From Planctomycetota bacterium (lineage in GTDB: Bacteria > Planctomycetota > Planctomycetia > Pirellulales > Pirellulaceae): DNA of 46,157 nucleotides. The DNA is taken from positions 1 to 46,157 of the forward strand of contig VGZC01000049.1 of NCBI GenBank assembly GCA_016872725.1. Reading direction: 5' to 3'. Positions 24,741-42,951 of the stretch are shown piece by piece. How positions within the stretch are numbered: the stretch's first letter is position 1; the number at the start of each line of letters is the position of its first letter. A model generated the notes under the pieces. It was not told the origin of the DNA and did no database searches. It saw only the letters and a list, made by a program, of their open reading frames with translations. Both the position numbers and the translations under genes were made by a program.

Positions 24741-25820
24741 ATGATGGACCGATGGGGTGAGGCATGCGGCCGCCGCGCGTTTCTGACGCGATGCGCCGTG
24801 GCGGCCGCCGTATCCTGGGCCGCATGCCGCCGACCCGTGTGGAGCGCCGAACCGGCGCGGCCCCGCGCGGATGCGGCGGAAGGTACGCGCGGAGTCGTGC
24901 TCGTGCCCGAGGACCTCTCGCTGGCCGACTGGCCGCGCCGAGCCAAGGACGCGGGGCTCACGACGATCGGCATTCACCATCAGAACTCGCCCCGCGCGGT
25001 GATCGCCTGGATGCAATCGGACGCGGGGCGCCGGTTCTCGAGCGACTGCGAGCGGCTGGGGCTTCACGTCGAATTCGAGCTGCATGCGATGAAGGAGCTG
25101 CTGCCTCGCGAGCTGTTCGCGAAGGACGCGGGCATGTTCCGCGTGAATGACGCGGGCGAGCGCGTCGCCGACTTCAACTGCTGCGTCCATTCGACGTCGG
25201 CCCTCGATCAGATCGCGCAGAACGCGGCGACGATCGCCAAGGTCCTTCGGCCCACGACGGGCCGCTATTTCTATTGGGGTGACGATGGAGAACCGTGGTG
25301 CCGGTGTTCCAAATGCCGCGACTTGACCGAGTCGGAGCAGGCATTGACCGTCGAGCACCAAATTCTCGCGGCGCTGCGGACCATCGATCCGCGGGCGACG
25401 CTCGCGCATCTCGCCTACCACAACACGTTGGTCCCGCCTCGGCGCGTCAAACCCGTCGAGGGGATCTTCCTGGAATTCGCGCCCATCCATCGCCGTTACG
25501 ATGTCGCGTACGCGAAGCAGGAAGATGGGAAGCTGGCCGACGGCCTCGCGGCCCTCGACGCCAACCTCGAAGTGTTTCCGACGGAAACGGCCCAGGTCCT
25601 CGAGTACTGGCTCGATGTCTCGCGGTTCTCGCAGTGGAAACGACCGGGGGTCCGCTTGCCGTGGAACGGCGACGTGTTCACCGACGATGTCGCTACGTAT
25701 CGCAAGCGGGGCATCCGGCACATCACGACGTTCGCGGCGTGGATCGACGAGTCCTACCGGTCAAGGTTTGGCGACCTTTCCTTCCTGGAGGCCTACGGCC
25801 GCGGACTTGGGGGGAATTGA
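24741..25820 (+). CDS. DUF4838-like exported protein (possible glycoside hydrolase)
   Basis: About 359 residues. ATG 24741 has AAGGTGGGA about 6 bases upstream; a GTG at 24729 is in frame but less likely. The N-terminus CGRRAFLTRCAVAAAVSWAA is Tat-like. The domain resembles DUF4838: LADWPRRAKDAGLTTIGIHH, GRYFYWGDDGEPWCRCSKCR (the W-C-x-C-x-x-C metal-like motif typical of the family), LAHLAYHNTLVPPRRVKPVE and GIFLEFAPIHRRYDVAY. The family is common in planctomycetes and placed near carbohydrate-active genes. It follows the DUF5010-like gene by 43 bases, so the two probably form an operon. A tRNA-Lys lies 96 bases downstream. Confidence 0.75.
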   Translation: MMDRWGEACGRRAFLTRCAVAAAVSWAACRRPVWSAEPARPRADAAEGTRGVVLVPEDLSLADWPRRAKDAGLTTIGIHHQNSPRAVIAWMQSDAGRRFSSDCERLGLHVEFELHAMKELLPRELFAKDAGMFRVNDAGERVADFNCCVHSTSALDQIAQNAATIAKVLRPTTGRYFYWGDDGEPWCRCSKCRDLTESEQALTVEHQILAALRTIDPRATLAHLAYHNTLVPPRRVKPVEGIFLEFAPIHRRYDVAYAKQEDGKLADGLAALDANLEVFPTETAQVLEYWLDVSRFSQWKRPGVRLPWNGDVFTDDVATYRKRGIRHITTFAAWIDESYRSRFGDLSFLEAYGRGLGGN

Positions 25821-25916
25821 TCACGCATGACGCGTCCATGCATGCCGGCCGCGCGAGGATGCGCGCGGAACCCCTTGCGAGCGCCATCGTGACTGGTACC
25901 ATGTGGATGCCTGTCC

Positions 25917-25989
25917 GCCCCGCTAGCTCAATTGGCAGAGCATCTGACTCTTAATCAGAGGGTTTTTGGTTCGAGTCCAAAGCGGGGCA
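25917..25989 (+). tRNA. tRNA-Lys (CUU)
   Basis: A 73-base cloverleaf. The acceptor stem GCCCCGC pairs with GCGGGGC. D arm GCTCAATTGGCAGAGC. Anticodon stem TCTGA/TCAGA encloses CTCTTAA, giving anticodon CUU. The T arm is TTGG-TTCGAGT-CCAA. No CCA is encoded (A then CTCC). A strong intrinsic terminator begins 9 bases downstream. Confidence 0.95.
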
Positions 25990-25997
25990 CTCCGAAA

Positions 25998-26030
25998 GGC
26001 CGTAAATCCAAATGGTTTACGGCCTTTTTT
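25998..26030 (+). terminator. Rho-independent terminator after tRNA-Lys
   Basis: A perfect 9-bp stem GGCCGTAAA / TTTACGGCC with a 9-base loop is followed directly by six Ts. This is the clearest intrinsic terminator in the window. Confidence 0.9.
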
Positions 26031-26120
26031 CGTTTTCCACCGAAAGAGGGGGGAGTGGATTGCGTTCTACCTATAGGTGCTACGGGGAGAGCTCGAAACG
26101 TGCGCCACACGCGCCTCGGA

Positions 26121-26620
26121 TCAACGATTCCACATCGTGTGGACCATGCGGATGATCCGTTCCTCGATGTCGGGAGCGAATGGTTCGGGTTGGAGTTCGA
26201 GCGCCGTGAAACGCATGGCTCCGCCCGCTTCGTATCCCCCCTCAAGACGGGCACGTCATGGTCGACGGGCCCGTCCGGATTCGGGAAGTTCTTGGAGCCC
26301 GCGGCGCTTGGCGTTCGGCGGTTCATGGCAAAGCCGCAGCGCGCGTGGCAATACGAAAGCCGCGCCGAGTCCAATCGGCCCAAGGCGTCGCCCACCACGC
26401 GTTCGAGTTTCTCCGACAGGAAGGCCGCATAACGGTCGTTCGCCGCCCGACGTTCCGCGGAGAGTCCATCGGCCTTCCATCGGGAGGCCCGGAACTCCGG
26501 TCCGCAGTGCGTGTGCGAACAGCTCATCAAGAGGGCCGCCGGGGGCAATTGGAACTTCTCGCCGACGGTCCGTTCCCGATGGTCGCGAATCACGCGCGGA
26601 ACGCTGATCAAGTCGCTCGT
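26121..26620 (-). pseudogene. Neutral ceramidase-like remnant with internal deletion
   Basis: Two pieces of one family are visible. The first (26620 down to about 26240) reads TSDLISVPRVIRDH, ALLMSCSHTHCGPEFRAS, EKLERVVGDALGRLDSARLS and GFAMNRRTPSAAG, ending PNPDGPVDHDVPVLR, as in the N-terminal half of ceramidase-like proteins. At a run of six Gs the frame shifts and a C-terminal piece follows (GGYEAGGAMRFTALELQPEP, FAPDIEERIIRMVHTMWNR, stop at 26121). About 166 codons remain of a family usually near 450. The middle has been deleted and the true 5' end replaced by an M50 protease fragment, so it cannot encode a working enzyme. Confidence 0.75.
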
Positions 26621-27013
26621 AAGGAACGGGCCCGCGGTGACGGTCAATGCGTGAATCGGTTCGAGCGACGCGGTGAACATCAACCAGGCGAACAGACCGG
26701 CCGCGATCACGACGTTGACGGCGGGGCCGGCGAGCGCGACGCCAAGCTCTTGCATGGGCTCCTCGGGCGTGCGTTCCAACCGCGCCAGTCCGCCGATCGG
26801 CGACAGCGTGATGTCGCGGGTCTTGATGCCGTATCGCGCGGCCATCAGCGCGTGGCCGAACTCGTGCAACAGCACGCACGCGAACAACGCGAGGACAAAG
26901 CCGACGCCTTCGAGCGTTTGGGTGAGATCCTGCCCGGCGGACCAGTGGCGATAGGCCACAAACACGATCAAGATCGGAAACGTCGCATGCACGTAGACGG
27001 CGATTGCGTTGAT
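26621..27013 (-). pseudogene. M50 zinc metalloprotease fragment (site-2 protease/Rip3-like), fused in frame to ceramidase remnant
   Basis: The minus-strand frame reads INAIAVYVHATFPILIVFVA, then FVLALFACVLLHEFGHALMA with the intact HExxH zinc motif, ARYGIKTRDITLSPIGGLAR, LAGPAVNVVIAAGLFAWLMF and ALTVTAGPFL. This is the N-terminal half of an M50 membrane protease. It begins abruptly (no ATG, GTG or TTG fits just upstream) and ends abruptly at GPFL, where the ceramidase sequence continues in the same frame. The second metal-site motif (N-x-x-P-x-x-D-G-G) and any CBS domains are missing. Boundaries are good to about 10 bases. Confidence 0.75.
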
Positions 27014-27016
27014 GCG

Positions 27017-27300
27017 CCGGATCGCTTGCCTCCGAACGCGGCGAGCAACGCATTCTGGCTCTGGACGCTCCGCAACCTGATTGTTCAGGACATCGACGAG
27101 GACGACGATGGAGCGCCCGACACGCCGCGGCTTCTGTTCGCGACGCCGCATGGTTGGCTGAGCGACGGCGGCGCGCTGAGTGCGGACCGGCTGCCGACGG
27201 CGTTCGGGCCGGTCTCGATCGCCGAGCGCCCGCGATGGGAGCAAGGCGAAGTCGACGCGGATGTCACACTGCCCCACCGACCCGCTCGACGGCACCTCAA
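27017..27300 (+). pseudogene. C-terminal tail fragment of a glycoside-hydrolase-like or large surface protein
   Basis: On the plus strand a frame with natural amino-acid composition reads NAASNAFWLWTLRNLIVQDI, DEDDDGAPDTPRLLFATPHG, WLSDGGALSADRLPTAFGPV, EQGEVDADVTLPHR. This resembles the C-terminal tail of planctomycete glycoside-hydrolase-type proteins (D-x-D-x-D-G, LLFATP and FGPVS patterns), which I recognise only by general style. No start or upstream domain is present; the fragment abuts the broken 5' end of the M50 fragment on the other strand. Boundaries are approximate. Confidence 0.5.
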
Positions 27301-27330
27301 GAACGGCCGACCGACGACCCGCCGACCGAA

Positions 27331-28734
27331 CTACGTGCGGCTTGTCGAGCGATCTGCCGTTTTCGCGGGCGCCTTCCGCGGCGCATTGGCGCGCGTGCGA
27401 TTCCGATTGGGAGCATCGACGGCGCTTGGCGGCGCCTGTTCGGCGTTCCAGGCGTCGTATCGCTTCTGGAGGTCGGCGACGCGATCGGCGTTCTCCCCGG
27501 CCAGATCGTCGGATTCGGACACGTCCTCCGCGAGATTGTAGAGCTCGGGTTTGCCGCTCCCGCCTTGCGAGACGACCAGTTTCCAATCGCCGCTTCGAAC
27601 GGCCCATTGTTTTCCGAACCGCCAGAAGAGGTCCTCGTGCGGTCGGCCTTGGCTCGCGCCGGTGAGGAACGGGCCAAGATCCACGCCGTCGAGCTTTGCG
27701 TCGGCGGGGGCCGAGGTTCCTGCCGCGGCGAGGCACGTGGGCAGGACGTCCAGATTCAACACGGGCTTTTCGTACGTGACGCCCTCGGGCCAAACGCCTT
27801 TCCATTGCGCGATGAACGGAACCCGAGTCCCGCCCTCGAATGTCGTCATCTTGAACCCGCGGAGCACTCCGTTGCGCGATGTCGTCGCTTGAGTCGGTCC
27901 GCCGTTGTCGGCGATGAAAAAGACGAGCGTCCGTTCCTCCTGCCCAAGATCGCGGACTTTCGCCATGACATGGCCGATCGCGTCGTCCATCGCCGACATC
28001 ATGGCCGAAAAGGTCCGCCGCTTCTCGTCCGCGATGTGCGGAAACCGGTCCAGGTATTTTCCGGGCGCCTGCAGCGGCGCGTGCTGCGCATTGAACGGAA
28101 GATACAGGAACCAGTGGCGATCCTTGTTGCGTTCAAGCCAATCGACGGCTCGCTCGGCGTACTTGTCCGTCGTGTAGAACGAGTCGTCCGTGATCTTCTC
28201 GACTTCGAGCGATTCGCGGGAATCGACAAAGAACGTCGGGTGGAAGAACGGCGTGTTGTTCAGCGTTCCGTAGAATTCGTCGAATCCTCGGTTCGTCGCG
28301 TAGTAGTCCTTCGACGCCTGCCCGCCAAGGTGCCATTTTCCGATCGCGCATGTCGCGTAGCCGAGCGTGCGGAGGCGGTCGGCGATGGTCGTTTCCTTCA
28401 AGGACAATCCCGATTGTCTCGCGACCGCGTTGAACTCGTGCCCGAATCGCGTCGGATATCGGCCCGTCATCAATCCGGCCCTCGACGGGCTGCAATAGGT
28501 CGCGGCGACGTACCCTTGCGTGAACCGAACGCCATGGCGAGCCAACGCGTCGATATGCGGGGTCGGAATCTCCTTGCATCCGTACGCGCCCGTTTCACCG
28601 TATCCAAGATCGTCGGCGTAGAAGATGAGGACATTGGGCGGAGCCGCGAGAGCGCGGGGTCCGAGGTCGCCGCGGAAAAAGAACCAGCACGGCGCGATGA
28701 GCAACCAGAACGAGCGCCGGTGTCCGCAATCCAC
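27331..28734 (-). CDS. Sulfatase, Cys-type, exported
   Basis: A 467-residue type I sulfatase. The GTG start at 28734 has GAGGTGGATC just upstream. Residues 1-32 form a signal peptide (SFWLLIAPCWFFF...ALAAPP). Motifs: VLIFYADDLGYGETGAYG (metal-binding Asp pair), YCSPSRAGLMTGRYPTR with Cys81 as the formylglycine site in C-x-P-S-R, ATCAIGKWHLGG (Lys and His of the active site), and VFFIADNGGPTQAT (Asp-Asn metal ligands). It probably removes sulfate esters from glycans or related substrates outside the cytoplasm. An anaerobic or FGE-type maturase is needed and none is in the window. The C-terminal 30 residues are Arg- and Ala-rich and run up to the graveyard, so the 3' end may be non-native. Confidence 0.92.
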   Translation of the reverse strand: MDCGHRRSFWLLIAPCWFFFRGDLGPRALAAPPNVLIFYADDLGYGETGAYGCKEIPTPHIDALARHGVRFTQGYVAATYCSPSRAGLMTGRYPTRFGHEFNAVARQSGLSLKETTIADRLRTLGYATCAIGKWHLGGQASKDYYATNRGFDEFYGTLNNTPFFHPTFFVDSRESLEVEKITDDSFYTTDKYAERAVDWLERNKDRHWFLYLPFNAQHAPLQAPGKYLDRFPHIADEKRRTFSAMMSAMDDAIGHVMAKVRDLGQEERTLVFFIADNGGPTQATTSRNGVLRGFKMTTFEGGTRVPFIAQWKGVWPEGVTYEKPVLNLDVLPTCLAAAGTSAPADAKLDGVDLGPFLTGASQGRPHEDLFWRFGKQWAVRSGDWKLVVSQGGSGKPELYNLAEDVSESDDLAGENADRVADLQKRYDAWNAEQAPPSAVDAPNRNRTRANAPRKAPAKTADRSTSRT

Positions 28735-40755: not shown

Positions 40756-40831
40756 GCCAGCGTAGCTCAATTGGCAGAGCAGCTGATTTGTAATCAGCAG
40801 GTTGTGGGTTCAAGTCCCTCCGCTGGCTCCA
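40756..40831 (+). tRNA. tRNA-Thr (UGU), CCA encoded
   Basis: Acceptor GCCAGCG/CGCTGGC, anticodon arm GCTGA-TTTGTAA-TCAGC giving UGU, T arm GTGGG-TTCAAGT-CCCTC with one U-U mismatch. The 3' end TCCA includes an encoded CCA, unlike the other tRNAs here. It is first in the tuf cluster, equivalent to E. coli thrU. Confidence 0.93.
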
Positions 40832-40932
40832 TGTGCGCGGATGCGGACCGTCTTGTATTGTTGCGTTTGTGTTGTTCCGGTTTGTTGGCTGGGCTCGGTT
40901 TCGGGTTGCGAAGCGGATGGCAACCGGGGCGC

Positions 40933-41014
40933 GGGGGGTTTCCCGAGCGGTCAAAGGGGTCAGACTGTAAATCTGATGGCAATGCCTTCGCAGGTTCGAA
41001 TCCTGCACCCCCCA
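40933..41014 (+). tRNA. tRNA-Tyr (GUA)
   Basis: An 82-base class II tRNA with a long variable arm. Acceptor GGGGGGT/ACCCCCC, anticodon arm TCAGA-CTGTAAA-TCTGA giving GUA, T arm GCAGG-TTCGAAT-CCTGC. No CCA encoded. Equivalent in position to E. coli tyrU. Confidence 0.95.
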
Positions 41015-41054
41015 TTGTCAACCCGGTGGTGAATACGTCACCTTGTGTTGCGAC

Positions 41055-41125
41055 GCGGGTGTAGCTCAATGGTAGAGCCACAGCCTTCCAAGCTGAAGAC
41101 GAGGGTTCGATTCCCTTCACCCGCT
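41055..41125 (+). tRNA. tRNA-Gly (UCC)
   Basis: Acceptor GCGGGTG/CACCCGC, anticodon loop CTTCCAA giving UCC, T loop TTCGATT. 71 bases, no CCA encoded. Equivalent in position to E. coli glyT. Confidence 0.93.
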
Positions 41126-41141
41126 CTGCGGCTTGCGAAAG

Positions 41142-41214
<73 letters not shown>

Positions 41215-41389
41215 CCTCCGTGCCACCCGCGTGGTGCCGCGAGTGGGTGCGGGCGGGATGGACGGCCCTTGGGTCGACGGGAGTGGGATGGGCGAGCGAG
41301 CTTGACGATGTCGCGGATGGCGAGTCCTGTCGGGGAGGCGTCGTCCGAGTCGGGTGCCCGCCGCGCGGCCCGTCGAAATAAACGTTGGA

Positions 41390-41410
41390 CCGTATTGTTA
41401 CGGGTTTTTT
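41390..41410 (+). terminator. Short hairpin with T-run between tRNA-Thr and tuf
   Basis: CCGTA-TTGT-TACGG, a G, then six Ts, 36 bases before the tuf ATG. It could be a weak terminator or attenuator that sets tuf level relative to the tRNAs, or a site separating mature tRNA from tuf mRNA. Confidence 0.45.
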
Positions 41411-41445
41411 CAGATCGAGTCATCGAGAAGGCGAGTTGAGACGAC

Positions 41446-42642
41446 ATGGCGAAGGAGGTATTCGAACGTAAGAAGCCCCACATCAATGTGGGGACCATTG
41501 GTCACATCGATCACGGCAAGACGACCCTCACGGGTGCGATTCTCGCCGTGCAAGCCGCGAAAGGAATGGCCAAGTTCCGGAGTTACGCCGAAATCGCCAA
41601 GGGCGGTACGGTCCGCGACGAGACGAAGACGGTGACCATCGCCGTGGCGCACGTCGAGTACGAGACCGCGAATCGGCACTACGCGCACATCGACTGCCCG
41701 GGACATGCCGACTTCATCAAGAACATGATCACCGGCGCCGCCCAGATGGACGGCGCGATCCTCGTCGTGTCGGCGGCCGACGGGCCGATGCCGCAGACGA
41801 AGGAACACGTCCTGCTCGCGCGGCAGGTCGACGTTCCGGCGGTCGTCGTGTTCCTGAACAAGTGCGACCTCGTCGATGATCCCGAACTGCTCGACCTCGT
41901 GGAAATGGAAATCCGCGAACTGTTGAGCAAATACGATTTTCCCGGGGAAGAGACTCCGATCACCCGCGGTTCGGCTCTTCCGGCGTATCAGAAACCGGAC
42001 GATGTCGAAGCGCGGAAGTGCATCGAGGCCCTGCTGGATACGGTCGACAGCTTTATCCCCCAACCGCCGCGCGAGGAGGACAAGCCGTTCCTCATGGCGA
42101 TCGAGGACGTGTTCTCGATCGAAGGGCGCGGAACGGTCGCGACCGGCCGCATCGAGCGGGGGCGGGTCAAGGTCGGCGAGGAAGTCGAAATCGTCGGATT
42201 GTCCGAAGCGCCGCGCAAGACGGTTTGCACGGGCGTCGAAATGTTCCGCAAAATGCTCGACGAAGGTCGGGCCGGCGATAACGTCGGTTGCCTCCTCCGC
42301 GGTATCAAACGCGAGGAACTTGAACGCGGCCAGGTCCTGGCAAAGCCGGGTTCGGTCAAGCCGCATACGAAATTCGAGGCGGAAGTCTATTGCTTGTCGA
42401 AGGACGAGGGAGGCCGCCATACGCCGTTCTTCAGCGGATATCGGCCGCAGTTCTACTTCCGTACGACCGACGTCACCGGCTCCGCCAATCTAGTCGAGGC
42501 CGAAATGTGCATGCCGGGCGACAATGTGCGCGTGACGGTCGAGCTGATCAAGCCGATCGCCATGGACGACGGCGTCCGGTTCGCGATCCGCGAGGGCGGC
42601 AAGACGGTTGGATCGGGTGTGGTCACGAAGATCATCGAGTGA
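41446..42642 (+). CDS. tuf: Elongation factor Tu
   Basis: A 398-residue translation GTPase that delivers aminoacyl-tRNA to the ribosome. P-loop [11 protein letters not shown] (19-29), DCPGHADF (G3, 83-90), [12 protein letters not shown] (G4 NKxD) and RGSALPA (G5) are intact. Domains 2 and 3 are normal ([40 protein letters not shown]). The switch I region is unusual: the canonical A-R-G-I-T-I-N is replaced by T-K-T-V-T-I-A around residues 60-66, with the effector Thr kept. The gene follows four tRNAs and precedes tRNA-Trp and secE, the standard bacterial context. Confidence 0.97.
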
Positions 42643-42777
42643 GATCGGGTGGCGAGTCCCCGCGGTCGGCTTCCCCGGCTGCGGGGCCCTTTGTTGGATC
42701 ATGGCATTCGGTCGGCATGCGGTCCCCGGCTCGGCCGTCGATCGATAGGCTCGCGTTTTGAACGTGCCGCGGGTATT

Positions 42778-42850
42778 AGGGGTGTAGCTCAATTGGCAGA
42801 GCACCGGTCTCCAAAACCGGGGGTTGCGAGTTCGATCCCCGCCACCCCTG
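42778..42850 (+). tRNA. tRNA-Trp (CCA)
   Basis: Acceptor AGGGGTG/CACCCCT, anticodon arm CCGGT-CTCCAAA-ACCGG giving CCA. The T stem GCGAG/CCCGC has one A-C mismatch. Discriminator G, no CCA encoded. It lies between tuf and secE, a common bacterial arrangement. Confidence 0.93.
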
Positions 42851-42951
42851 CTGATCCAGTGCGCGGGCCGGAGTCCCTGTCCCCGGGCACCGGACGCCGG
42901 GCCCGCGGAATCGCGGTGGCCCGTTGATCGAGAGGGGAATGCGATTCGGCT

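Follow-up and report, generated by a model that had tools for sequence, protein, structure and literature searches.

Prokaryotic pseudogenes are treated in general accounts (PMC522871 and PMC9336565), and the phenomenon described here, most probably pseudogene remnants produced by deletion, is of a kind that is already known. The genes that left the remnants also have relatives among known enzymes. For one of them, the full-length homologue is a Ceramidase_alk member that matches the solved neutral ceramidases 2zws (E 3.6e-13) and 4wgk (E 1.5e-11). In M50 site-2 proteases, the relatives of another, a later D-G motif gives the third zinc ligand. The locus considered here lies in the window, i.e. 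the whole stretch of 46,157 nucleotides that was analysed, which is contig C49. The genome to which it belongs amounts to 5.24 Mb in 100 contigs, is 95.8 % complete and is probably a MAG. Between a tRNA-Lys gene and an apparently intact sulfatase gene, four gene pieces from three unrelated families are found within ~1.2 kb, adjoining one another with little or no spacer (Table 1). With high confidence, this stretch can be regarded as a cluster of pseudogene remnants that deletions have left behind, and as an instance of ordinary gene decay.

An earlier note on this DNA had described three gene families, each present as a piece only, within 1.2 kb beside tRNA-Lys and its terminator. Both of the latter are indeed in place, and homology upholds the description while enlarging it to four pieces, the addition being a C-terminal ceramidase piece that had not been named. 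The composition of the region is uniform with its surroundings (GC 0.658, vs 0.651 for the window), and GC at the third codon position of the minus frame is 0.76-0.90 in windows from 26160 to 27029. Two observations concern the tRNA genes of the contig and their surroundings. Thirty-four bases of the terminator-like hairpin stretch (26000-26033) recur at 94 % identity on contig C3 (G000:C3:42497-42530; L002 1501-1534), with the C3 copy sitting after tRNA-Gln and the window copy after tRNA-Lys. Farther along, at 40756-42851, genes for tRNA-Thr, Tyr, Gly and Thr are followed by an open frame of 398 aa and then by tRNA-Trp, which we take to resemble the common tRNA/EF-Tu cluster.

Table 1. Features of the remnant locus and its borders, by position in the window
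Feature	Position	Strand	Remarks
tRNA-Lys (CTT)	25917..25990	+	Left-hand border; ARAGORN and Rfam
Terminator-like hairpin 3' of the tRNA-Lys gene	25994..26028	+	
C-terminal piece of ceramidase-like gene, with stop codon	26121..26246	-	Frame differs from that of the middle piece
CTTGAGG, 7-base overlap of the homology of both ceramidase pieces	26240..26246	-	
Middle piece of ceramidase-like gene	26240..26620	-	Covers about residues 91-217 of L016, a homologue of 467 aa
N-terminal piece of M50/CBS site-2 protease gene	26621..27019	-	Pfam PF02163 and homologues; right edge approximate
Near-C-terminal piece of an unnamed protein of ~750-800 aa	27026..27300	+	Right edge approximate
Sulfatase, apparently intact	27331..28734	-	Right-hand border; Pfam PF00884, profile 1-300 of 301

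Within the minus-strand open frame at 26240-27013, Pfam finds Peptidase_M50 (PF02163) at E 5.9e-15, which passes the cut-off. The HExxH motif, which in this family lies in a membrane segment, is intact as HEFGH, and M50 membership is based on that motif together with the Pfam match. Taken alone, the M50 half is 71-76 % identical to the intact homologues L004, L005 and L029, and its seven best matches in named genomes belong to six planctomycete MAGs and one genome labelled Deltaproteobacteria; these matches and the gene content suggest that the window is planctomycete DNA. In pairwise alignments, homology with the two closest homologues (L004, L005) ends at GPFL. Past this point, intact homologues have a DGG motif (FPMDGGRVLRA; L004/L140, L005), which is the later D-G motif, and two CBS stretches, all of which are gone from the piece. 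The native start is gone as well, the homologues starting ~8 residues ahead of the surviving part.

It had been claimed that an M50 N-half with its HExxH passes, in the same frame and at about 26620, into a ceramidase-like segment, the junction running GPFL then TSDLIS. Pfam and the homologue alignments confirm the passage, and the pairwise alignments confirm the junction, M50 homology ending at GPFL and ceramidase homology starting at (L)TSDLIS. The profile search suggested for this frame was successful for M50 but not for ceramidase, as the middle piece alone has no Ceramidase_alk match in Pfam, only a sub-threshold BBP2_2 match at E 0.0095. That piece is nonetheless 54 % identical, over all 127 residues, to an intact ceramidase-like protein in a relative (E 1e-44). 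L018 and L019 align with the ceramidase half from the GPFL boundary onwards; for L016 and L017, weak alignment continues beyond it into the M50 half, and this we take to be chance extension. The C-terminal piece (matched at 26133-26258) shows 60 % identity to residues 424-465 of the intact homologue (E 7.9e-10), and its stop falls at the natural place, where the homologue ends. With this second piece lying in another frame, the ceramidase gene appears to have undergone a deletion in its interior that also shifted the frame. At the overlap, CTTGAGG is read as V-L-R in the middle piece and as L-E-G in the C-terminal piece, and is presumed to be the microhomology of a deletion between 7-base repeats. 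In homologues, the two ceramidase motifs that are joined here stand 191-238 residues apart (8 distinct proteins, from 13 rows including repeats; 18 loci were scanned, five of which gave none). The gene has lost ~90 N-terminal residues and ~206 internal codons, such that, in place of a complete Ceramidase_alk domain, only about residues 91-217 and 424-465 of 467 are present, in two frames.

That a frame is open over both the M50 and the ceramidase piece, with conserved residues kept, might suggest a real two-domain protein, expressed and functional, but such a protein is scarcely credible given the absence of the protease start, the DGG motif and the CBS domains, along with the ceramidase N-terminus and ~206 internal codons, the ceramidase C-terminus being out of frame. 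None of the marks of a functional two-domain gene, i.e. a start, a promoter and a fusion conserved in relatives, was found. There is no in-frame start codon between 27120 and 26992, the first being GTG at 26992, which borders on the first hydrophobic segment and has no ribosome-binding site evident by eye. No sigma-70 consensus promoter occurs at 25800-27600, although planctomycete promoters may differ. Among the best 80 of 207 relatives from genome contigs, all of which match the M50 half, there is no fusion; the one that extends furthest past the junction, L063, is the only match reaching residue 159, and it has no ceramidase homology (score 25, vs a mean of 27.8 for 200 shuffles). Because the parts that each activity needs are absent from both halves, the fused frame would, judging by its sequence, make no working protease or ceramidase, and the in-frame join is a one-in-three coincidence. 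It is likewise barely conceivable that the deletion gave birth to a young chimeric membrane protein, uniting M50 membrane segments with part of a ceramidase, made from the internal GTG and kept for a new, non-catalytic role.

Read in the plus-strand frame 27032-27304, the third piece is matched strongly in four genomes, at 45-53 % identity and with E from 3.9e-22 to 1.4e-15; three of the matches lie in open frames of 761-797 aa and the fourth, in G204, in a stop-broken frame. Matches to this protein at E up to 0.001 occur in 8 of 198 genomes of the class, own included, and strong ones in 4 of the 197 others. Neither Pfam nor NCBIfam has a match for the family at E up to 0.01; our guess is that its members (e.g. 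L146 9758-12148) may be carbohydrate-active enzymes. The left edge of the piece, LPPN, corresponds to residues 653-656 in two long open frames seen whole, as counted from the stop preceding each frame. From LPPN to the end of those frames there are 142-144 residues, ~91 of which are kept here, so that the gene has lost about its last 50 codons plus some 600-650 N-terminal codons. Frames starting at 27028 and 27040 were also tried for this piece, and their weak matches (E 2e-5 to 0.01) were set aside as noise, the right frame being 27029/27032. The copy in G204 (L145 9738-11660) has four in-frame stops (two TAG and two TAA) in an otherwise continuous 42 % match, and owing to those stops the gene may be a pseudogene in that genome too.

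The order and orientation of the pieces fit a collinear array reduced by deletions alone. The ancestral order would have been tRNA-Lys (+), ceramidase (-), M50 protease (-), third gene (+) and sulfatase (-), and the array would have collapsed by four deletions with no inversion. The first of these may have removed ~0.6 kb inside the ceramidase gene; the second, at least ~0.95 kb from the M50 C-half to the ceramidase N-terminus; the third, at least ~1.8 kb comprising the start of the M50 gene and the N-terminal four fifths of the third; and the fourth, the final ~50 codons of that third gene. By homologue lengths, the total loss would be at least ~3.5 kb, and at least one deletion probably proceeded via the 7-base microhomology. 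The proposal of a deletion between two minus-strand genes is thereby supported, and is extended to four deletions in one array.

Searches of the same genome for the missing parts bear on how the pieces came together. For the C-terminal part of the M50 protease, four rows at E up to 1 include no orthologous copy, the best matches being at 31 % in the CBS region (residues 104-209 of 228) and at 42 % over residues 6-55, the latter in a distant paralogue on contig C6. That paralogue, at 34 %, is also the only relative of the M50 piece itself in the genome. For the third protein, 600 residues from the N-terminal side gave no match at E up to 1, in a search that had no positive control. The whole ceramidase gave 17 rows, two at the locus and the others at most 43 % identical, with no orthologous copy, and the genome has two other nearly full-length ceramidase-like genes, at 43 % (C5) and 37 % (C13). 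More broadly, the ceramidase-like family is expanded in this genome (G000), with 14 further places (15 rows, two on C3 being counted once) at E up to 2.3e-5, save one weak row. Thus, as is expected of deletion remnants, intact homologues exist elsewhere while no orthologous copy of the missing parts turned up in a genome that is 95.8 % complete.

A join of unrelated contigs or strains in metagenome assembly, which the earlier note had entertained as a join of unrelated reads, would be in keeping with a genome that is in 100 contigs and is probably a MAG. It is disfavoured and improbable, as it would need four joins within 1.2 kb, no stray halves turn up elsewhere in the assembly as orthologous copies, a single gene accounts for two of the four pieces, which keep its order and natural stop, and both GC and the codon-position pattern are uniform. 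Moreover, a comparison of 26000-27330 with all other parts of the assembly, at E up to 0.001 (where shorter repeats are invisible), returned only the 34-base terminator match. It is also conceivable, albeit very improbable, that the pieces reached the site beside the tRNA gene by capture, as filler DNA or through a mobile element, and are not what deletion left of resident genes. Several unrelated pieces do lie end to end beside a tRNA, and the ancestral array was not found in relatives. Against capture, there is no second copy of the 18-base tRNA 3' stretch within the window at up to three mismatches, no intact donor of the M50 subfamily or of the third gene was found in the genome, the ceramidase order and natural end are kept, and the arrangement of the pieces fits deletions alone. 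The suggested insertion and excision of an element at tRNA-Lys is therefore unsupported, with no second tRNA end in the window and the natural end of the ceramidase gene still beside the tRNA.

Comparison of the locus with relatives, also proposed at the outset, went part of the way. M50, ceramidase and third-protein homologues do stand as separate genes, but neither an intact fused gene nor a shared neighbourhood appears in 96 loci. None of those 96 has any two of the three together at tblastn E up to 1e-8; the loci overlap in part, are in some cases only 3-6 kb long and include the uninformative L137, which came from the wrong stretch of its contig. No tRNA gene is present in 16 stretches of relatives (L132-L147, L137 again being uninformative). 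For M50, the 39 other genomes compared as relatives include none of the same genus.

To return to remnants left by deletion as the preferred reading, the pieces have been little altered. No stop codons occur inside them. Of the columns that are conserved at 90 % among 90 homologues, the M50 piece keeps 43 of 44, and of those conserved at 95 % it keeps all 34; the homologues themselves, left out one at a time, miss 0 to 6 and 0 to 3, respectively. With only the 15 nearest homologues as reference, 3 of 61 columns are missed (G5A, L73S and W93G; homologues 0-7), and the figures are 2 of 55 against 25 homologues (0-5) and 1 of 49 against 40 (0-7). The ceramidase keeps 18 of 18 columns conserved in 13 homologues, whose own misses are 0-2. 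No excess erosion over intact homologues is thus seen in the conserved columns, and point-mutational decay was abandoned as a line of argument. Because internal stops are absent, third-position GC is of the coding type and conserved residues are unspoiled, the loss looks recent, at least as far as sequence can tell. Unspoiled residues and open frames are also expected of a protein under selection, and it is the missing parts that speak against function.

The practical consequence lies in annotation, since automated gene finding could report a protease-ceramidase fusion here, while the open frame should be annotated as pseudogene remnants. Past this, the locus has little import, other than as an example of gene loss caught early, with conserved residues still unspoiled. 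A survey of the sulfatase family, to which the right-hand border gene belongs, gave 26 rows, with 21 spanning nearly the whole profile and the other five coming from three places, where the open frames measure 408, 667 and 954 aa; in this one family, there is no sign of common short fragments.

In comparison with known systems, the M50 piece resembles the M50/CBS site-2 proteases L005, L004 and L029, with 71-76 % identity over the surviving part and HEFGH kept, and differs from them in being without a start, the DGG motif and both CBS stretches. L016, a neutral/alkaline ceramidase-like protein from the same bacterial family, is matched at 54 % by the middle piece and at 60 % by the C-terminal piece, whereas the ceramidase here is without the N-terminal ~90 and ~206 internal residues and its frame is broken. 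Finally, the locus as a whole is like the remnants of bacterial deletion pseudogenes in its truncated pieces, lack of starts, missing catalytic parts and join at a short overlap. It does not differ from them in kind, the in-frame join and the missing spacers being striking only by chance.
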